The notes under the pieces are model-generated. The model did not search any database, was not told where the DNA came from, and saw only the letters and a list, made by a program, of their open reading frames with translations. Positions 8,144 to 64,000 of a DNA stretch of 64,000 bases are shown in pieces. Where the stretch lies: assembly GCA_000697055.1 (NCBI GenBank), contig JNDT01001590.1:1-64000 (forward strand). Direction: 5' to 3'. A program made the translations under genes and the position numbers. Within the stretch, counting starts at the first letter, position 1, and the number at the start of each line of letters is the position of its first letter. Source of the DNA: Saksenaea vasiformis B4078 (lineage: Eukaryota; Mucoromycota; Mucoromycetes; Mucorales; Saksenaeaceae).

Positions 8144-8353
8144 ATGAGCGTGTGCATTAGCTGTAATGGACTAGGACACAACGATACACGAAGTCGTATG
8201 TGTAACAACAATCGAAGAGACAAACAAGATATCATTTTACATATCATCCTTACAAGGAGCCCTTGTAATCCTAACTTGGTGGTCAGGTACCGCAGGTGTG
8301 ACTCGTCCGAGGCCGCCTGCAGTGTCGAAAAAGTATTCAGTGCAAAAGACTGA
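8144..8353 (+). pseudogene. zinc-knuckle-like fragment
   Basis: The plus-strand reading from 8153 gives CISCNGLGHNDTRSRMC, a C-x2-C-x4-H-x7-C arrangement followed by basic residues. Similar single zinc knuckles occur in repeated, transposon-associated proteins of early-diverging fungi (family knowledge, not searched). The ORF has no plausible start exon and no other domain, so I read it as a fragment of a mobile-element protein. Confidence 0.35.
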
Positions 8354-8831
8354 TGTAGAAATGGCAGGCGAGAAAGCCCCGAAGATGTTCCTGGCCTGCA
8401 TTGCAGACCCATACTCTAAGCGCGGTTGACTGAAAGTCAGACCAACGCGTAAGGTATTGGATACATGGATATTTGAGAATGTATACATTAGAATATTGTT
8501 GCGGATATCTGCAATAACGATAGACTCACCGCATGTAGTAGTAAACTAAGGCGACACCTTGTGTCGAACGAATATGGTCCATAAATAGTACGGTCTACTA
8601 TCATTCGTATGGAAGGATGGTTAAAACTTTGGGGCAGTTAACGCAGACTTTACCGGTTAAGTCAAGAACCGAAGACGATAGAAAGAAAAGGGCCTTAGCG
8701 CAAGCTGATGTTGAACGGCTCAGATTATGCAAAGTGGGATCCATGACGAATTGTGACTGATTGGTTACATACGTACTGGTTCCATCTTGTCATTTGGACG
8801 TATATCTTTGTATCACATGTGACGCTGTGCC

Positions 8832-9030
8832 GGAAATTACTACGTACACTCCAACTGAACGCTCCAGACCCCCAAATTCTGAGCGGATAGCAAAATAGAA
8901 GTGTCGCCGGTTGTCATATTCAGGCGTAGTGTAGTACGGAAATCGCGAGGTATCTCACAGTGGAGTGCACCATAATGGAATGTCTTGTAGTGAAGCATAC
9001 CGTAGTGAAGCGCCCTGCAACAGAATCAGA
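8832..9030 (+). repeat. MULE-type left terminal repeat with subterminal tandem repeats
   Basis: GGAAATTACTACGTACACTCC, continuing into CTCCAGACCCCCAAA, lines up with the terminus of the MULE at 18702-22242 (inverted right end: GGGAATTACTACGGACACCCC, then CTCCAGTCCCCCAAAA). At 8955-9020 there are 3-4 degenerate ~17-bp repeats of the type AGTGGAGTGxxCCATA, exactly as just inside the MULE ends at 18850-18930. A Fanzor relic starts ~115 bp inside. No matching right end was found downstream. Confidence 0.7.
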
Positions 9031-9144
9031 CACAACTACAGCAAACACTCTATGTAAGGATATTTGATAAAAGTAAGATAAAAATTTTTTTACGGAACAA
9101 CTTTGATAGGCAATATCTGATAAGTCCTACTAGCACGAAAGGGA

Positions 9145-10420
9145 ATGACTTTGGATCCAATGCAAGTCTCTTTTATAAGGCATTCCGACTTGGATAACTC
9201 GGATTTAAAAGGCGATACAACAGCTGTTACGAGCGTGGATTTTGATTTCTTATGCGGTACTCCGGACCGGAAGATCTCCTTCAGTGAAGGAACGGTCAGT
9301 GTCTTTTTACCAATGCAATCATGTCTGATGGCTATTCAGTCGATGTTATTTTTGCAAGGAAGAAGCTTCCTCCGCATCACACAGTCAATTTGGATCTTGA
9401 TGATTTCACAGCTGCAGAAATCTACCACTTTTTTTATCCTTGCGATTGTGATCCTGGTCTCACTAATGTTTACGCTTCTGCGTACGGTGGATCAACAGAT
9501 CGACCTCATGCTGTCCGCCGATTCACATCGTCAGGATATTACGCAATGTTACAAAGCAACAAATGTAGCAAAGTTCTTGGTGCGAAAAAGAAATGCGCTT
9601 GTATTGATGCCATTGAAGAAAATATACCGACTCCGAAGTCAGCGGATTCAATATAAGTATAACGCTATTTGGATGTCTAGAAGCACGGGAAAATTTCTAC
9701 GATTTGAGCACAGTACAATGCTGATTCCAAGGTTACCAACTACGGCAACGTGCAAGGAATGAAATAGCCAGTATACTGATCCTAAAGTGTAACCAAGCGA
9801 AGAGAAAGAAAGAAAAAGCAAAAACAGAGGTGAGACAAAAATAAGCAATTTATGTTCTCAGTTAATGCTGTATAGTAGGAAATCATTGTCCAGTAACGAC
9901 ATCGAAATACAAAGGCAAAAATCGCGCATACAAAACTGCAAAACTCGCACCCACTTGGTATAACCATCCAGCCTATTATACAGATTCTCACGAACGTAAT
10001 GTTAGGGCAACGAAGTGTGTCCGCGCGAAGAACGACTCAGTGGCGCCCTCTACGTCAACACGATCCTGGTGGCAGAATGCCAGTAATACTTTTTGGCAAT
10101 ACAATGTTTTCGAATATCAAGGGGAAAAAGCAAGGGCTTGCGAAAACTTGTCGCGCAATGCTAAAAAGATACGAACAGTCGGTGAAATGTTGATGCTTGA
10201 GATCGATGAATGTAATACATCAAAAGTGTGGCAAGGCTTGTTTCCATGACCGATACTAATTATACCTTTTAGGTTTGTTGTAAGTGCAACAGAAAGAATA
10301 TGGAAGACACAAGGACGGCGGAAGGTCAGCGTCTCTAAGGTGTCCAGTCGTGCAAAAACTGCAAGATACTTTGGCAGCGCGATCTAAACGCGGCGAAGAA
10401 TATGTTCTTGATTAGCGACT
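9145..10420 (+). pseudogene. decayed Fanzor (eukaryotic TnpB-like RNA-guided nuclease)
   Basis: Fanzor/TnpB signatures occur in the correct order but in different frames. The RuvC-I Asp is in CDCDPGLTNVYASAYG (Asp codon 9450-9452), preceded by MSDGYSVDVIFARKK. A bridge-like YQLRQRARNEIASILI starts at 9734. The RuvC-II neighbourhood PVILFGNTMFSNIKGKK starts at 10080, and EIDECNTSKV with the acidic residues at 10199-10210. The zinc-finger half SCKNCKILWQ and the RuvC-III motif RDLNAAKNM follow, with the Asp codon at 10381-10383. Frames run 1-3-2-3-2-1 and a stop lies at 10336-10338, so the gene is dead. All three catalytic acidic positions remain visible. Splicing could explain one or two frame changes, not all. 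It lies just inside a MULE-type terminal repeat (8832-9030). Confidence 0.85.
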
Positions 10421-11740
10421 CGGTGTGGATCGGAAATGGACGCCCACAAATATATCAACGGTCACAACAAGATCGTTAACATATCACCGCAACGAATGCG
10501 GGTTGGATTTTTACGGTGAAAGCATCGGTAAGATTCTTGTCACGGAATACGGAAAATACTCACCATTAAACGCTTGTGATGCTTGAAACGTTCTCTTGCA
10601 TCGACACAGAACCAAGTTGAGGTCTGAATAAGGCAAATCGAAGAGGTAGGTATGTGAACAATATGTGTGCACCTGCAAACCCTTTATTGAACTACGTAGA
10701 TTTGATTTTTCATTAGCGCAGACTTGGTTTTCAGTCGATGCAAGTTGACTTTTCAGGCAACGCAACCGTTGTTTTTTTTTTAAAAAAAAAACAGTTGTTC
10801 TTGGCTGTAAATAGGAATGTGTAAACAGCAACACACAGCATGCCCCCTAATTCAGCTTCTGTTCTACAAGCAAGAGCATCTGATCTTAGATCGCTCATTT
10901 GATCACATAGGAGCAGGTCCTCTGGCTAATGAGGGGGCTGTTGACGTCCTAACTATCCCTTGTACGTGTGCGAAGGAAACATAAAAAGTTGTTCTTTTTA
11001 ATATCACTAGCGAGGAAACGAATGGTGTCGCAATTTCTGGCTTTGCAGTTACTATGTGTGTTACTCTTAAAACCTAACTAGTCTGGGAGTATTGATTTTG
11101 AGCGTTTGCACCGTTTAAGGAATCAGAACTAGCTAACAAGGGGCGATCCCTCAGAAAGGTAATACTCTAGGATTCCCAACCGTTTCATTATTGCTGAAAG
11201 ATGCGAGATGTAGGAGTAACGCGAATGCGTTATGTGTTTCTGTGTACGTGGGAAAAAGCAGTGCATTTATACCGACGGAATATGAAAAAAGAGATGTTTT
11301 CATTCAGCAACGTCATGTCGGCTGTTCAGGGGTTACATTGGGAGACATAGCGTTTACACTTGATTCTCACTTTCTACACCTGTGACATGATTGTGCTTTT
11401 TACTTGTTTTGGTGTATGACCATTTGGGGGTAGGCTGATAAACTCTCGTATCATCCACCATCTGTGCATGTGGTCCTTATTAAGGTGGCGCGATTTCCAT
11501 AAACTCAATTTCACTGCGGAATACGGATTCAGGGGTTCGGATGACTTTTACGATACGACCGATAGCTCGTTCCCTTTATTTTTTTATTGCTTTCTGCTAA
11601 ATATAACGAAGTCTATATACATATGGATAATCAAAAATAGGAAGATGGGTGTGTTTCTGTATTTGTGTTTTTTTTGTTTCTCGGAAAAAAAATCGGACGA
11701 TTGGCAGACAGGAAAAGCCGTGCGATTATATGGGATACAC
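10421..11740. other. intergenic, no gene recognised
   Basis: Low-complexity runs (poly-T/poly-A at 10771-10792) and short ORFs without domains. I looked for the missing right terminal repeat of the Fanzor-bearing element here and did not find it. Confidence 0.45.
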
Positions 11741-17074: not shown

Positions 17075-18180
17075 TGAATACTTTATCTTTGACCAAAATT
17101 GTCGATAGGATTCGGTTCAGGGGAATAAGAACGAAGGTACGCACAAAAACAGCCACGTTCTGCAATTACCATTTCAGTTTCCTTCCCGTTGTGAATTGTT
17201 GCGTTGTCCATGACCAGGTAAAAGCTTCTAAATTCGGGGAATCGATCCATCACATCTACAGTTTCCAGCAAATAGTCCATATAGTGCCCGTCCATTGTTT
17301 CTGTCATCTTTCATGTATTTGCAACACGTTTCCTCTTTCTTCATTGAGTGTTCAGTTTTCGGATGCTGATATTCACAATCCCAGTGACAGATATGGCACC
17401 CAGAATCGTATGAGACGCTGCACTTGTTGCAGCCACCTTGACAATACGCGTGGTACCCTTTTCCAGCCACCCAATTGATTGACGATGGTTGATACAGAAG
17501 GCAGTTGCATCTATAAAAACGCAGTTTGTAGTGAAGTCCATATCACTGTTCATCCATTGGGGCACCCGTTCTACCTTTAATTGATTGTTTCTTCGCTGTT
17601 TCTTGTCAAAGGATGGAAATGAGCCTTTATGAAAAATATGTTGCCTTCAGTTTTCATGAAGTAATGTACCACATTTTTCTTGATAACCAGTCCTTCGAAT
17701 TGCTTGATAAGACTATTGACAGCTTGATCGACGATTGCTGTTGGATTGCTGTCAATGAATTCAATATGCCGTTTGTGTTCGTTCGGTAATCTTGGCTTTG
17801 GCCCAGGCTTATTTTTCTTGTTTCCAACTTCATTTTGCTGTCCAGACTGTTTGTATGCTTTCATCCATCCTTGCGCCGCTCGTACATTTACCCGCATTCC
17901 TTTCCCGCATTTGCTGCTGACACAAGTTTTCAAGATGATATGCGATAACAAGGGATTTGAGGCCTTCTGAGTGAGTGTTGTATCCACGCTTTTTCAGTTT
18001 CCTCCTGTTTCGTCATGATGTCGTTGCGTCATAGCTTCGCCTTGCTGTTCATCTTGCTGACAGTGTTTTCTGCCACTTCGTATAGATTCCATGTTCTTCG
18101 AGCAATTCAAATTCTTTGTCCAGTTCAAGTTCATCCACAAACGCCATGGGATCGTTTCCATCTTCGGCAATGTCTATTGT
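17075..18180 (-). pseudogene. mariner/Tc1-like (DDE_3) transposase, broken
   Basis: Read on the minus strand from 17987 downward: a helix-turn-helix-like region (QGWMKAYKQSGQQNEV, then KPGPKPRLPNEHKRHIEFID), NCVFIDATAFCINHR with the first catalytic Asp, TTRIVKVAATSAASHTILGA, then LVMDNATIHN with the second Asp, and YSPEPNPIDNF with the third acidic position. This is the Tc1/mariner-IS630 DDE layout. At least two stops or frameshifts break it (near 17580 and 17340). Related N-terminal sequence continues to about 18180. No terminal inverted repeats were delimited. Confidence 0.8.
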
Positions 18181-39600: not shown

Positions 39601-39802
39601 TGCGCCGATTGGGTGACTCTTTGCCATGAGAAATATTCATTTTGCGTTAATCCGAGTAATATTTCTCGCCTGGATGACCTGAGCTTTGCCTTGGGCGCTC
39701 CAGTGATGGATTTCCGGTATCCCATGGGAAAGCAGTAAAAATGTCTCACTGTAAGGACAAGCTCCACCCAAAATGATCCGTATTGAAGGGACGCATGAAA
39801 TT
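39598..39802 (-). repeat. dispersed repeat R1
   Basis: Its reverse complement (CATGCGTCCCTTCAATACGG, ATCATTTTGGGTGGAGC, CATTTTTACTGCTTTC, ATCACTGGAG, ATCCAGGCGA, GATTAACGCAAAA) aligns along ~200 bp with 54255-54480. Parts also align with 62845-63005 and 63042-63105. Ordered similarity with substitutions shows a dispersed, non-coding repeat, probably part of a transposable element whose full length is not in this window. Confidence 0.75.
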
Positions 39803-40482
39803 TTTTCTTTTTTTGCCTCTGTCTTTTCACAAAAATATCCCGGTGAGGTTGTTGATTCTTCATCATGTATACAAGATTATTATTCATGCCTTTTTATCAG
39901 ATATCTTAGGAACCACACCTAATTCGAGACGCATTTTGGAGCCATATCTTGCACAGTCGCACACCCACCGAAACTATCCCAAACCCGATTGATCTCAGGG
40001 ACGGAATTTGGTATGGCTCCTAAGAAAAAGAAAACTAAGATACGGCAGCTTGATTGCAAGGAATTGGAGGAAGTCTGCTTGGTCGCTTTTTCTTGCCCCT
40101 CTATTGATATAAATCGGTCAGGTGCCGCTTACAAGGAGTTCAGCCGCAATCAGTCTGAGGAAGCAGAAAACCAAGGCTTGAATTAATGGTGGGTTTTCTT
40201 TTTGTAAGAACTCCAATGTTAACAGAGTCCCGAGAGTCAGACATCTACATCATCCGTAAAGGCTCGTCGTTTCTCGCGGCAAGGTCGCCATGACGAGAAA
40301 GGCCAGTTGCAACATGCTGTCTTCCCAACCACCTCCTCGGTAATTCACGCAACGTAGGATGAAAGTGTATTTGCAACAAGAGCTTTCTTTGTTATCCTTA
40401 GCAATAGATAAAATAATATAAACGTAGTCTTTTTTCTTTCAGCGTATCAGCTGCATATAGGACGATAGCATACAGCGAGTTA

Positions 40483-52759: not shown

Positions 52760-53930
52760 CTTATGTTAATTTATTGAACAATTTTTTTTACGCTCTTCCT
52801 TTCTATCATCTTCTCCCCTTCCCTGCTCTCCATCTATAGATTCTATACGAACTGCCCTCATCTTTTCCTTCCCCTTTGTTACAAAGGTTTCCTTTCTCTA
52901 TCCCTACCCTTACAGACCAGGCTAGAGTGGGCATGCTAATTGGCGGCGCGCTCGCTATCATTTAAAAGATCAAATAAAAAAAATTTGATTAATCTTTTTA
53001 TGCTGCTCTAAACGAATGCGTTCATGAACAGTCAAGTTTGCGCTGAGAGAGAATAAATAAAATAGGGTTATTAGTTAATGAATTGGCAACAAAACATGTC
53101 TATTTAGACCAGCGGAATTTCTCGCTTCACTTCACATCCCTGCTTTTTCTACGGGAAAAGAAGAGATTACACGATGAAGAGAGAACTGCGGGAAGTAGGT
53201 TGAAAGATCTATGAGAAAGGAGATAAAGAGGGCTATGGGAAATAAGATGAGAATCTATGGAGAAGGGAGACAAAAAGGTTACGAAAGAGGAAAATGACGG
53301 TTCTATAATAAAAAGGGGAGATGAAGAGGCTATGAGAAAGAGAATGAAAGGCTGTGGAAAAGGCAAGATGGAGATGCTATGGAAAAGAAAGGTGCGGAAG
53401 CTATGACGGAGAAGTAGAAAATCCTAGGAGATCATTCACAACCTTATGTTCACCGATCAACAACTGAGGTGTTGTGTTCGTTGTCGGCTAACTGGCGTCT
53501 TTTAAAAGCTTTGTCCTGTACGACAAATGATCACTATTCAAGATCGATTGACCTCTAAGACATCGATGACATCCTAACCTTGAATCGTCATCTCGGACTT
53601 CTTTTGCTGGTTAGAATGCATATCTCTTTCAGAATACCATGGGATATCCGGCGAATAAGAGTATACCTAAGATCATGGCAGTCTTGTGTGTCCTCTCTAT
53701 GGGAAAGGATATCAAGACCCTATGCGATGAAGAAAAGACACTTCCGTTGCAATAATGGCAAGCGTGTGAGATGATGAAACTGAAGCTGGAGTAAGCTTTT
53801 AGGATAGCTATGTTCAGTACTGTTTATTGAATGGCAGTTTACGCTATTCTAAACAAATTATGCGTCCATGGAGAGCCAAATTTGCACTGAGAGAAAAATA
53901 AAATGTACGGTCATTGGTTAACCATACGTT
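52760..53930. other. intergenic, includes purine-rich minisatellite
   Basis: 53155-53405 is a G/A-rich strand with drifting ~30-bp units like GAxGCTATGxGAAAxG (for example AGAGGGCTATGGGAAA, GAAGAGGCTATGAGAAAG, GGAGATGCTATGGAAAAG). 52820-52915 is pyrimidine-rich. No gene. Confidence 0.55.
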
Positions 53931-53939
53931 TACTTACAT

Positions 53940-54165
53940 CAACATGGCCCCCGGTGGACGCATAACTTATTGGAGCAGCATAAAATGGCATTCACGGTTA
54001 GTAAAAGAAAGATGTTTTGATGTCAGTTTACTTACCCCCGAAGGGCACTTTTGCCCGTCGACAGGGACCAGCCCCGCACCGTAGCGGGTGGGGGCGGCGA
54101 GATGGGATCGGCACGGCTTTGTGGCCGGCTTTGGGAGTTTAACGACCATGAGTCTGAACAATAAA
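53940..54165 (+). repeat. repeat R2 copy 1: AT-rich arm plus GC-rich hairpin block
   Basis: ATTGGAGCAGCATAAAA, then TTTGATGTCAGTTTACTTAC and CCCCGAAGG precede a GC-rich block at 54041-54130. It contains obvious stems: GGGCA/TGCCC (54043-54056), CCCGC/GCGGG (54073-54087), and a CGGCACGG...GGCCGG segment. A diverged second copy lies at 54655-54850. It looks like a structured non-coding repeat; class unknown. Confidence 0.55.
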
Positions 54166-54254
54166 CAAAAAAGACATGAGGAATCCCGTATGTATAGTCA
54201 ATCCCAGTACGTACCGGGGATGTAATAAAGAAAACAGGTCCAAAGAAAAAAAAA

Positions 54255-54490
54255 GGATTCATGCGTCCCTCTAAATACGGATCATTTTGGGTGGAACCTG
54301 TCCTTATCGTAAGACATTTTTACTGCTTCCGGTGGGATCCTGGGAATACATCACTGGAGTACCCACAATGCAAGACTCTGGTTATCCAGGCGCAAACAAC
54401 TCCTTGGATTAACGCAAAACGGCTTACTCCTCAGCGCAAAGACGCATCACTTTCCAGTGCAAAAAATATTCGGCTTGAACGCAATGTAAT
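54255..54490 (+). repeat. dispersed repeat R1, plus orientation
   Basis: The most complete R1 copy in the window. See 39598-39802 for the aligned phrases. It lies between the two R2 copies. The upstream phrase GTACCGGGGATG...AATAAAGAAAACAGGTCCAAAG also resembles 189-240 at the window start. Confidence 0.75.
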
Positions 54491-54654
54491 ATTTATTTGA
54501 TGCAAAGGCTCACTCAAAATCCAGTAATTCAAAAAATTCAGGCGCGAAGAAAAGTTCACTCCGAGCTCGTGTTCCAAACTCCATGTTAGTCGGACAACGA
54601 CAGTGCATAAATCCACTCTTCCATTTCCATAACATAGTTCTTAAGATCCAAAGA

Positions 54655-54850
54655 TCAATTTGGCCCGAGATGGAAGAATAATTTATTGGAACAGCATAAA
54701 AAACCATTCCTGTTTGGTAAATGGAAGGTACTTTGATGTCAATTTACCCACCCCGAAGGTAATCCCACATAGTTGTGGAGTTCTACCCCGCAGCCTGGCC
54801 AGGTGGGATCGACGTCGGGAGAGGATCTGGTGAAGCCTGCCAGTAATCAA
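54655..54850 (+). repeat. repeat R2 copy 2
   Basis: ATTGGAACAGCATAAAA, TTTGATGTCAATTTACCCAC and CCCCGAAGG repeat the order of copy 1. The following block differs in sequence but again offers stems: CCACA/TGTGG (54765-54778) and CCTGG/CCAGG (54794-54803). Confidence 0.55.
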
Positions 54851-62580: not shown

Positions 62581-64000
62581 TTCTATCACCTACATAATCA
62601 CCGGAGGGGTTTGCTTTCTGGAGGTTTTAATTCTCATCGCGATGTCCTTGGCACCGCTCAGATGTAAGTAAGAAAAGAAGAGCTATCATAGGCCGCAGCA
62701 TTTAGTACACTTGACGATGAAGTATGCATATGTCTGCCTGGTAATAGCCATCTAGCCGAGTTGCTTCATTCTTGTAAAAAGAGATACTGGATTTGGAATC
62801 AACGTTTGCGCCAGCTATATGTCCTTTTCACGTTCAAGTTAAATAAGTTTTGCGCTGGAAAGTGATACGTCTTTACGGTGAGAAGTGGCTTATTTTGCGT
62901 CAATCCTAGGAATAGTTCGTGTCTGGATAACTTCCTTTTTCCATTGAGGTGCTTCAGTGATGGTTTTTCGATATCCTTTCAGGAAGCAGTAAAATGTCTC
63001 AAGGAAATGTCCTATTGAAACAAGAAATCGTTTTTTTTTTGGCATTGTGGGTACTCCAGTGATGGATTCCCAGTATCCCATAGGAAAGCAGTAAAAATGT
63101 CAATCCTTTCGCTTTGAATCAGGGATTACACCGAAATTTCCATGGTTTAAAGTGCGCCACAACCTATATATGACAGTGATCTACACGACAACGTGCTTAA
63201 TTTGTCATCTTTCTGATCGAGTGATAATTTCATATCTACAAACTTCTGGCCTCCAATTTTCTGTATCTGGAACGAATGACCAAGTAAGCAACCAATGCAC
63301 GGCCTCCTAGACACCACACAATTAGCGTTTATGCATGTTTCAAAGTCATTGTGATACGCATATGCCGCTATATTTGATTGCGGTCATGAACAGATCAATA
63401 ATGGTCGCAAGAAGAGAAAAAACTCTAATAATTACTTCTGATGACATCGAGTAGTACTGTTCCATTTTTACTTTGTTGATTTTTTTGCTTAATGTCAAAT
63501 CCGGAACCATACACATTTTTGATATCTGAGGCTTACTGCGAGAATACAATAGATTCCATTGAGCAAGTCAGCTGGAAATCACTTGCATGTCAAGTTGTCT
63601 TTTGTAATTGACGATGAGATAGGGTGATGTTAATACTGCCAAGAATACATCTGTGTCACAAAAGAAAATTGGGATGCGCATGACATACTGGAGACCATCA
63701 TCTGGTTTCTTACATTGGTTAAATTGACGCAATGCGTGATCTAACGTGCTAGTAAAGTTTTCTATCTGTTTTCGATGTATGCCGTCGGTATCCATCATCA
63801 CTTATAGGAAGGAGAATGACATACCAAAAGTTCAGTTGTTATCTACGCATAAGGCTGAGGGTAGGACATCAAGATAGCTATGTCTGCAAATGCGAAAGAT
63901 CGATCGGAAATGCTGTCAATGACGTATGAGTTAAAAATAAAGAAAGAGAGAAACTGTGGTTTTCTTACAACAGCCAGTTTCCGCCCCAGTTGGATAACGT
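62581..64000. other. intergenic, repeat fragments only
   Basis: 62845-63005 and 63042-63105 are R1 fragments in the same orientation. The ORFs 63346-63549 and 63568-63801 (both minus) show no domain; the former includes a hydrophobic stretch. No gene supported. Confidence 0.45.
62845..63105 (-). repeat. two partial copies of dispersed repeat R1
   Basis: Inverted relative to 54255-54490. 62845-63005 carries the downstream two thirds (GACATTTTACTGCTTCC to ACTTTCCAGCGCAAAA). 63042-63105 carries the central part again (GACATTTTTACTGCTTTCC, ATCACTGGAGTACCCACAAT). This is two nested or successive insertions or a local duplication. Confidence 0.65.

Follow-up and report, generated by a model that had tools for sequence, protein, structure and literature searches.

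The window, by which we mean the whole stretch of 64,000 nucleotides analysed (contig C287 of a 38.7-Mb genome in 666 contigs), carries on its plus strand a truncated Fanzor-like gene followed by the right end of a transposable element (Table 1). The initial annotation had recognised here a decayed Fanzor by six hallmark motifs, all of which were found in the proposed order on the plus strand; its limits of 9145-10420 were too narrow, the homologous stretch being 9128-10793. A genome search with window positions 8400-11200 found the Fanzor stretch at three further places, on contigs C424, C47 and C500, with 89-91% identity over the main aligned pieces. By blastn, the C424 copy was 89.6% identical to the window across 9128-10775 and the C47 copy 89.1% identical across 9132-10787; the C500 copy aligned in three pieces (9931-10775, 91.0%; 9132-9468, 86.9%; 9840-9881, 88.1%). 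The repeat bordering the truncated 5′ end stops where the Fanzor remnant starts and is itself adjoined by a second repeat (8242-8829) with at least 23 other places in the genome (40 of 88 candidates scored).

Table 1 Features of the Fanzor remnant and its surroundings (window positions; exons and introns as predicted from comparison of the copies)
Feature	Position	Strand	Evidence
Different repeat adjoining the truncated 5′ end	8832..9135		13 other places, 12 ending at window 9135 (40 of 88 candidates scored)
Remnant of Fanzor1 transposon: 5′-truncated gene and right end of the element	9128..10793	+	blastn to C424, C47 and C500
Tail of upstream exon, frame 3; in-frame TAA 9195	9128..9211	+	four-copy alignment, translations
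Intron 1, 78 nt; donor GC in window, GT in C424, C47 and C500	9212..9289	+	four-copy alignment
Exon 2: RuvC-I DPG 9450-9458 (frame 3), RQRA helix 9743-9754 (frame 2), TGA 9722	9290..9829	+	copy alignment, translations
Intron 2, 46 nt, GT...AG	9830..9875	+	same intron in C424 and C47
Exon 3: FGNTMFSNIKGKK 10092-10130 (frame 3); repositioned RuvC-II glutamate in IDECNTSK 10202-10225 (frame 2)	9876..10225	+	copy alignment
Intron 3, 47 nt, GT...AG, with TACTAAT	10226..10272	+	also present in C424 and C47, at 48 nt
Exon 4: C4 zinc finger, both halves present (CCKC 10276-10287 and CKNC); RuvC-III RDLNAAKN 10378-10401 (CCKC and RDLNAAKN in frame 1)	10273..10479	+	PF07282
Long right-end hairpin, candidate guide-RNA region	10569..10770	+	RNA fold of 10560-10793
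A+T-rich right terminus, expanded T/A run	10771..10793	+	C424, C47 and C500 end ...AAAACAGTA

Removal of three GT...AG stretches (78, 46 and 48 nt) from C424 and C47 left one open frame of 373 residues, and in a homologue with 43% protein identity (L026) the reading breaks at the site of intron 1 (...GFQR/NSKRYMFTNQ...) and resumes at the matching residue. Judged by comparison of the copies, the three introns appear to be conserved between them and would therefore account for part of the apparent frame changes. In the frame series 1-3-2-3-2-1 given in the initial annotation, the leading frame 1 lacks support, since the coding frame of 9129-9211 is 3. Its reading of the frame changes as decay was right in part: the last (2 to 1) probably reflects intron 3, and the change near 9830-9875 combines the predicted intron 2 with nearby indels. 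Upstream of this catalytic half, the fuller copies extend into an N-terminal part that contains two knuckles of the CxxCGxxGH type and is missing from the window; in C424 this part matched zf-CCHC with 19.5 bits, just short of the cut-off of 20.8. C424 and C47 were considered as intact copies and rejected: their catalytic halves are open after splicing, but the knuckle region and the next domain lie in different frames in both, with more frame changes in C47, and C424 has a stop just past 5107 in a frame that is open in C47. An unrecognised intron may be present in this upstream region. In the 5′-only copy C467 (L050:3934-4581, minus strand), the knuckle region and the next domain share one open frame.

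The C424 and C47 copies share 3.69 kb at 93.7% identity between unrelated flanks, start with TACTGTTTATTG and end with AAAACAGTA. TA stands at each end, and the ends share TACTG...CAGTA, as expected of putative short inverted repeats with TA target duplication. These 3.7-kb repeats at unrelated sites support carriage of the gene by a eukaryotic transposable element, apparently non-autonomous and with no transposase frame noticed in it, whose ends suggest a TA-targeting transposase. At least 157 DDE_3 matches were obtained in the genome (150 of 237 candidates scored), none linked to the ends of the Fanzor element, DDE_3 being the sole transposase family searched. A search with the joined 220+220-bp flanks of C424 and of C47 returned no place spanning the junction among the 40 of 91 candidates scored. 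Four short places without an ORF (C370, C513, C542 and C602) retain remnants of both ends. The rightmost 361 bp of the element occur at eight places in all, known copies included; its first ~120 bp are common to many other elements, mostly at 76-81% identity (40 of 272 candidates scored), and the left-end pattern was found at 651 genome sites with up to two mismatches. The window holds another dead transposon gene, a DDE_3 match (PF13358, Tc1/mariner-type) at 17095-17523 on the minus strand, with 41.4 bits and two TGA codons inside.

The right end of the window (10560-10793) folded at -82.4 kcal/mol (z -7.1, with none of 200 shuffles as good), the lowest energy of the four copies, the other three ranging from -62.1 to -72.5 kcal/mol (C424, -64.6 kcal/mol, z -3.7); the fold of the C424 left end was unremarkable (z +1.8). 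The hairpin, of ~200 nt, suggests a guide-RNA candidate. The initial annotation had called for a search for a conserved 3′ guide-RNA region; a strong right-end hairpin is thus present, and compensatory changes are not, no two-sided change having been found in 89 pairs across the four copies. Rfam returned no match in the window at gathering scores. From a dead protein gene, the right end might still yield a guide RNA used in trans by other Fanzors, as its fold energy and its identity to the other copies (91.8-93.8%) would allow; exons 2 and 3 are 89.6-91.1% and exon 4 is 93.1-94.1% identical (window against C424 and C47). Yet part of that energy comes from the expanded T/A run, the pairs show no two-sided compensation, in none of the three sequences tested did the last 75 nt alone fold better than their shuffles (with a simple segment-swapping routine, cruder than the fold tool's own), and the closest genes found carry frame damage of their own. 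We consider such use in trans unlikely.

The signs of decay in the predicted exons are manifold. The initial annotation had reported one stop codon, at 10336, which was confirmed as a TAA, premature relative to the normal stop of exon 4 at 10477-10479; it is not the sole exonic stop, as two more lie at 9195 (TAA) and 9722 (TGA), and the donor site of intron 1, at 9212, is GC. Exon 2 has gained 1 nt at two places, one of them directly beside a loss of 14 nt, and has lost another 9 nt in frame; exon 3 bears two 1-nt losses. With the N-terminal part gone, three exonic stops and the frameshifts, the window copy has no open reading frame containing both lobes. It diverges by ~10% from C424 and C47, which differ from each other by 6%. 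Lineage-specific changes in exons 2-4, counted at codons where the remaining two of C424, C47 and the window agree, comprised 44 nonsynonymous, 13 synonymous and 2 stop changes in the window, as against 12 nonsynonymous and 7 synonymous in C424 and 13 of each in C47. The window copy has been freed from constraint for a long time.

The locus could alternatively be a still-working Fanzor gene with extra unrecognised introns, given that three of its apparent interruptions are best read as introns and that further ones might conceal others. This is highly improbable. The stops at 9195 and 10336 are sense codons in all three paralogues, and that at 9722 is a sense codon in C424 and C47, C500 being without that stretch. 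Likewise, the frameshifting indels do not occur in C424 or C47, nor in C500 at the one position where it can be compared. The missing N-terminal part and the excess of nonsynonymous changes, accompanied by two stops, also favour a pseudogene.

The profile search that had been suggested for the locus returned a TnpB/Cas12f-type match: window positions 10117-10407, translated in frame 1 with X at stops, matched PF07282 (Cas12f1-like TNB) with 28.1 bits (E 2.4e-6), above the curated cut-off of 26.3 bits. The other two frames of the same stretch matched no family, and the scores of exon 4 alone (20.8 bits) and of a read-through of 9145-10410 (24.8 bits) were below the cut-off. The RuvC-I stretch alone gave nothing relevant against Pfam (best 0.093, unrelated) and no match against the PDB, and the C-terminal stretch alone ranked Cas12m (E 0.019) above SpuFz1 (E 0.19) in the PDB, neither of them significantly. 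The window pieces are too damaged for significance against the PDB, so that DNA homology to C424, together with PF07282, carries the assignment. For the 373-residue half of C424, the first PDB match was SpuFz1 (8gkh, E 8.6e-7), followed by Cas12g (0.045-0.048) and a TnpB-like protein (0.33). The match to NF040570 (guided_TnpB) reached 30.3 bits against a cut-off of 100 (E 2.6e-7). In a large protein collection, no relative was found at E 0.01 for the 454-aa ORF of C424 or for the 772-aa ORF of C419.

In C424, the DPG, the repositioned glutamate, the C4 finger and the RD follow the published Fanzor order (D...E...C4...D). The Fanzor1 signature, as given in the available part of PMC3627910, is D-X(125,275)-[TS][TS]-X-X-[C4 finger]-X(5,50)-RD, and C424 conforms to it with D55, T303-S304 (247 between), C307/C310, C332/C335 and RD 341-342 (5 between), spacings counted by hand; in the window all signature residues are present, split by frame breaks. 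Fanzor1 proteins are further characterised by a DPG in RuvC-I and by a RuvC-II glutamate six residues ahead of the first finger cysteine (PMC10711439, available part). Both features occur in C424 (DPG and EYNTSKICCRC) and in the window (CDPG, and ECNTSK/VCC across intron 3); the RuvC-I of C47 reads DPD instead. The search expression in the same part of PMC10711439 allows 120-160 residues from DPG to E and 12-18 from CxxC to CxxC, and the spacings of C424 (242 and 21) both lie outside it, although 242 fits the 125-275 range of PMC3627910. The description as a decayed Fanzor was thus borne out by the PF07282 score, by SpuFz1 as the best PDB match of C424, and by the truncation, exonic stops and frameshifts of the window copy. 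Very probably, 9128-10793 is a dead, 5′-truncated Fanzor1 gene copy that was once carried by a TA-flanked 3.7-kb DNA transposon.

Another family with RuvC and zinc-finger domains, whether Cas12-like or a contaminating prokaryotic TnpB, might be suspected from Cas12g and Cas12m among the weak PDB matches, and is very unlikely: SpuFz1 is by far the best match of the complete catalytic half, three intron-like interruptions are conserved between copies, and contig C500, which bears one copy of the family, also bears a eukaryotic-type uL2 gene. The introns and this uL2 gene argue for a eukaryotic host; a gene on contig C536 matches SCS7, and the host is fungus-like. That the motifs are chance matches in non-coding DNA, being short and spread over several frames, is practically negligible given ~89% DNA identity to C424 and C47 along 1.6 kb and the single open frame that holds the motifs in both once spliced.

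The left flanks of the Fanzor element were compared where its left end could be read, leaving out C542, which has lost its first bases, as well as C500 and the window copy, whose left ends are gone. AC preceded the left TA in five of six insertions (C424, C47, C467, C370 and C513; GC in C602), with a chance probability of ~5e-6, or 8e-5 over 16 dinucleotides (a hand calculation taking A as 0.29 and C as 0.21). On the right, five flanks were readable and showed no conservation (gt, ta, at, aa, gt). Related elements with terminal TACTGTTTATTGAA fall into subfamilies that differ in the base before TA, as seen in the 100 sites listed of 651. Among these, TGAAT-type sites had A in 48 of 49 cases and one TGAAC-type subgroup, defined by hand after viewing the list, had T in 15 of 17; the remaining 27 TGAAC sites were mixed (14 A, 12 C, 1 T), as were seven other sites. 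The left-end pattern is itself biased against A at -2 and against G at -1. Out of 155 distinct left ends (88 from one search plus the new ones among the 100 listed sites), only one was followed within 9 kb by a PF07282 match on its own strand, ~2.5 being expected by chance (hand estimate), and the expected right end was not found in the 601 bases beyond this match. The preferences of these subfamilies may stem from the transposase or from a lost Fanzor. Since related elements that are unlinked to any Fanzor show comparable preferences, the transposase may also be responsible for the preferred flank of the Fanzor element, and AC as a putative Fanzor target motif is a lead rather than proof.

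As a possibility well short of an even chance, we tentatively propose that the family was a Fanzor1 whose N-terminal extension carried zinc knuckles, whose hairpin guide RNA was unusually long at ~200 nt and whose target motif was ACTA, and that this motif can be read from the flanks of insertions and of ORF-less ghosts despite the broken state of the closest genes. For the working form of the gene, the model is SpuFz1 of Spizellomyces punctatus and its SPu-1 element, the closest solved structure to the C424 half. Homology, exon-intron structure by comparison, element ends, paralogues and decay were observed here, whereas nuclease activity, the guide RNA and the target motif, like any biological role, are putative. 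The gene was a passenger of the 3.7-kb DNA transposon, whose short inverted ends are flanked by TA. By analogy with SpuFz1, its spliced protein would be guided by an RNA made from the right end of the element that carries it; it would find the empty target site by a short motif on the left flank and cleave there through its RuvC domain, whereupon repair would restore the element. In the parts of PMC10432273 available, the guide RNA of SpuFz1 is a 75-nt right-end scaffold and its motif is CATA, with CA in front of the left repeat; the window family has AC on that flank in place of CA, and guide RNA and cutting, proven for SpuFz1, are here a candidate and a supposition. The family resembles SPu-1 in having TIRs and putative TA duplications, in the two conserved nucleotides that precede its left end, and in its ORF-less relatives ("ghosts") that share both ends and part of the 3′ region (PMC10432273 and PMC3627910, available parts). 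According to the same parts, SPu-1 is ~2.1 kb long with a single ORF, whereas the window family measures 3.7 kb and has at least three introns and a two-knuckle N-terminal stretch.

Further Fanzors share some features with the family. As described in the accessible text of PMC3627910, the Fanzor1 of Mucor, Rhizopus and Phycomyces (MCi, ROr and PBl) are likewise fungal and are found in transposons of several types; no transposase is encoded by MCi-4, ROr-4 or PBl-3, which, compared by description, have MuDR-like ends with 9-bp duplications in contrast to the TA found here. CMe-1A of Cyanidioschyzon merolae shares its 5′ end with an abundant element of its own, much as the first ~120 bp here are shared, but is described there as being without TIRs, and its shared-end identity is 95% as against mostly 76-81%. 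PpFz1 of Parasitella parasitica, a mycoparasite of fungi including Mucorales, is also a Fanzor1, with the TAM ATN and a cyclophilin-binding domain (PMC11423790, accessible part), and was absent from the named PDB matches of the C424 half. The window copy is ordinary in kind, a pseudogene of the already known Fanzor family, and its group is one more fungal Fanzor family. If the flanks have been read correctly, dead copies and ghosts could reveal target motifs without a working enzyme.

Throughout the genome, at least 137 matches to PF07282 reached E 0.001 (with 150 of 388 candidates scored), and 114 of the 137 listed had no stop inside the matched stretch, which is short (hand count). The initial annotation had predicted intact relatives elsewhere: relatives are numerous by this count, whereas an end-to-end intact gene was not found in C424 or C47, both damaged upstream. 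An exon of C424 as query gave at least 100 matches (93 of 353 candidates scored). This abundance of PF07282 falls within the published range, CMe-1A having ~150 copies in its red alga (PMC3627910) and Fanzors "up to hundreds of copies" (PMC10711439) in the available parts of these papers. C424 and C47 were not among the 137 listed matches, yet their catalytic halves are open once spliced, a lesson for gene models in that intron-split Fanzors can evade single-frame reading. Within one 38.7-Mb fungus-like genome, Fanzor-type genes are thus abundant and diversified passengers of transposons, and in part dead.

A second Fanzor-like family was observed at L077:1662-3115, L078:3358-4230, L076:2081-3121 and L079:3348-3860. 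Its signature is mixed, with a TnpB-type DFG/DLG in RuvC-I (L077, L078) and a Fanzor-type glutamate (DEYQTSKVCC, DEYNTSKICC); L077 and L078 matched PF07282 with 28-30 bits, and L078 had no PDB match at E 1. L073:2899-5214 (minus strand) is a single open frame of 772 residues with a PF07282 score of 32.5 bits and DPR in RuvC-I, as opposed to DPG in its paralogue L074; a PDB sequence search with it returned no relevant match. An abundant repeat of ~870 bp, with a left end similar to the one found in the Fanzor element, has a copy at window positions 53818-54527 and pieces at 39618-39885, 62785-63101, 54654-54765 and 116-248; its right part gave 628 first-look candidates, of which 40 were scored.
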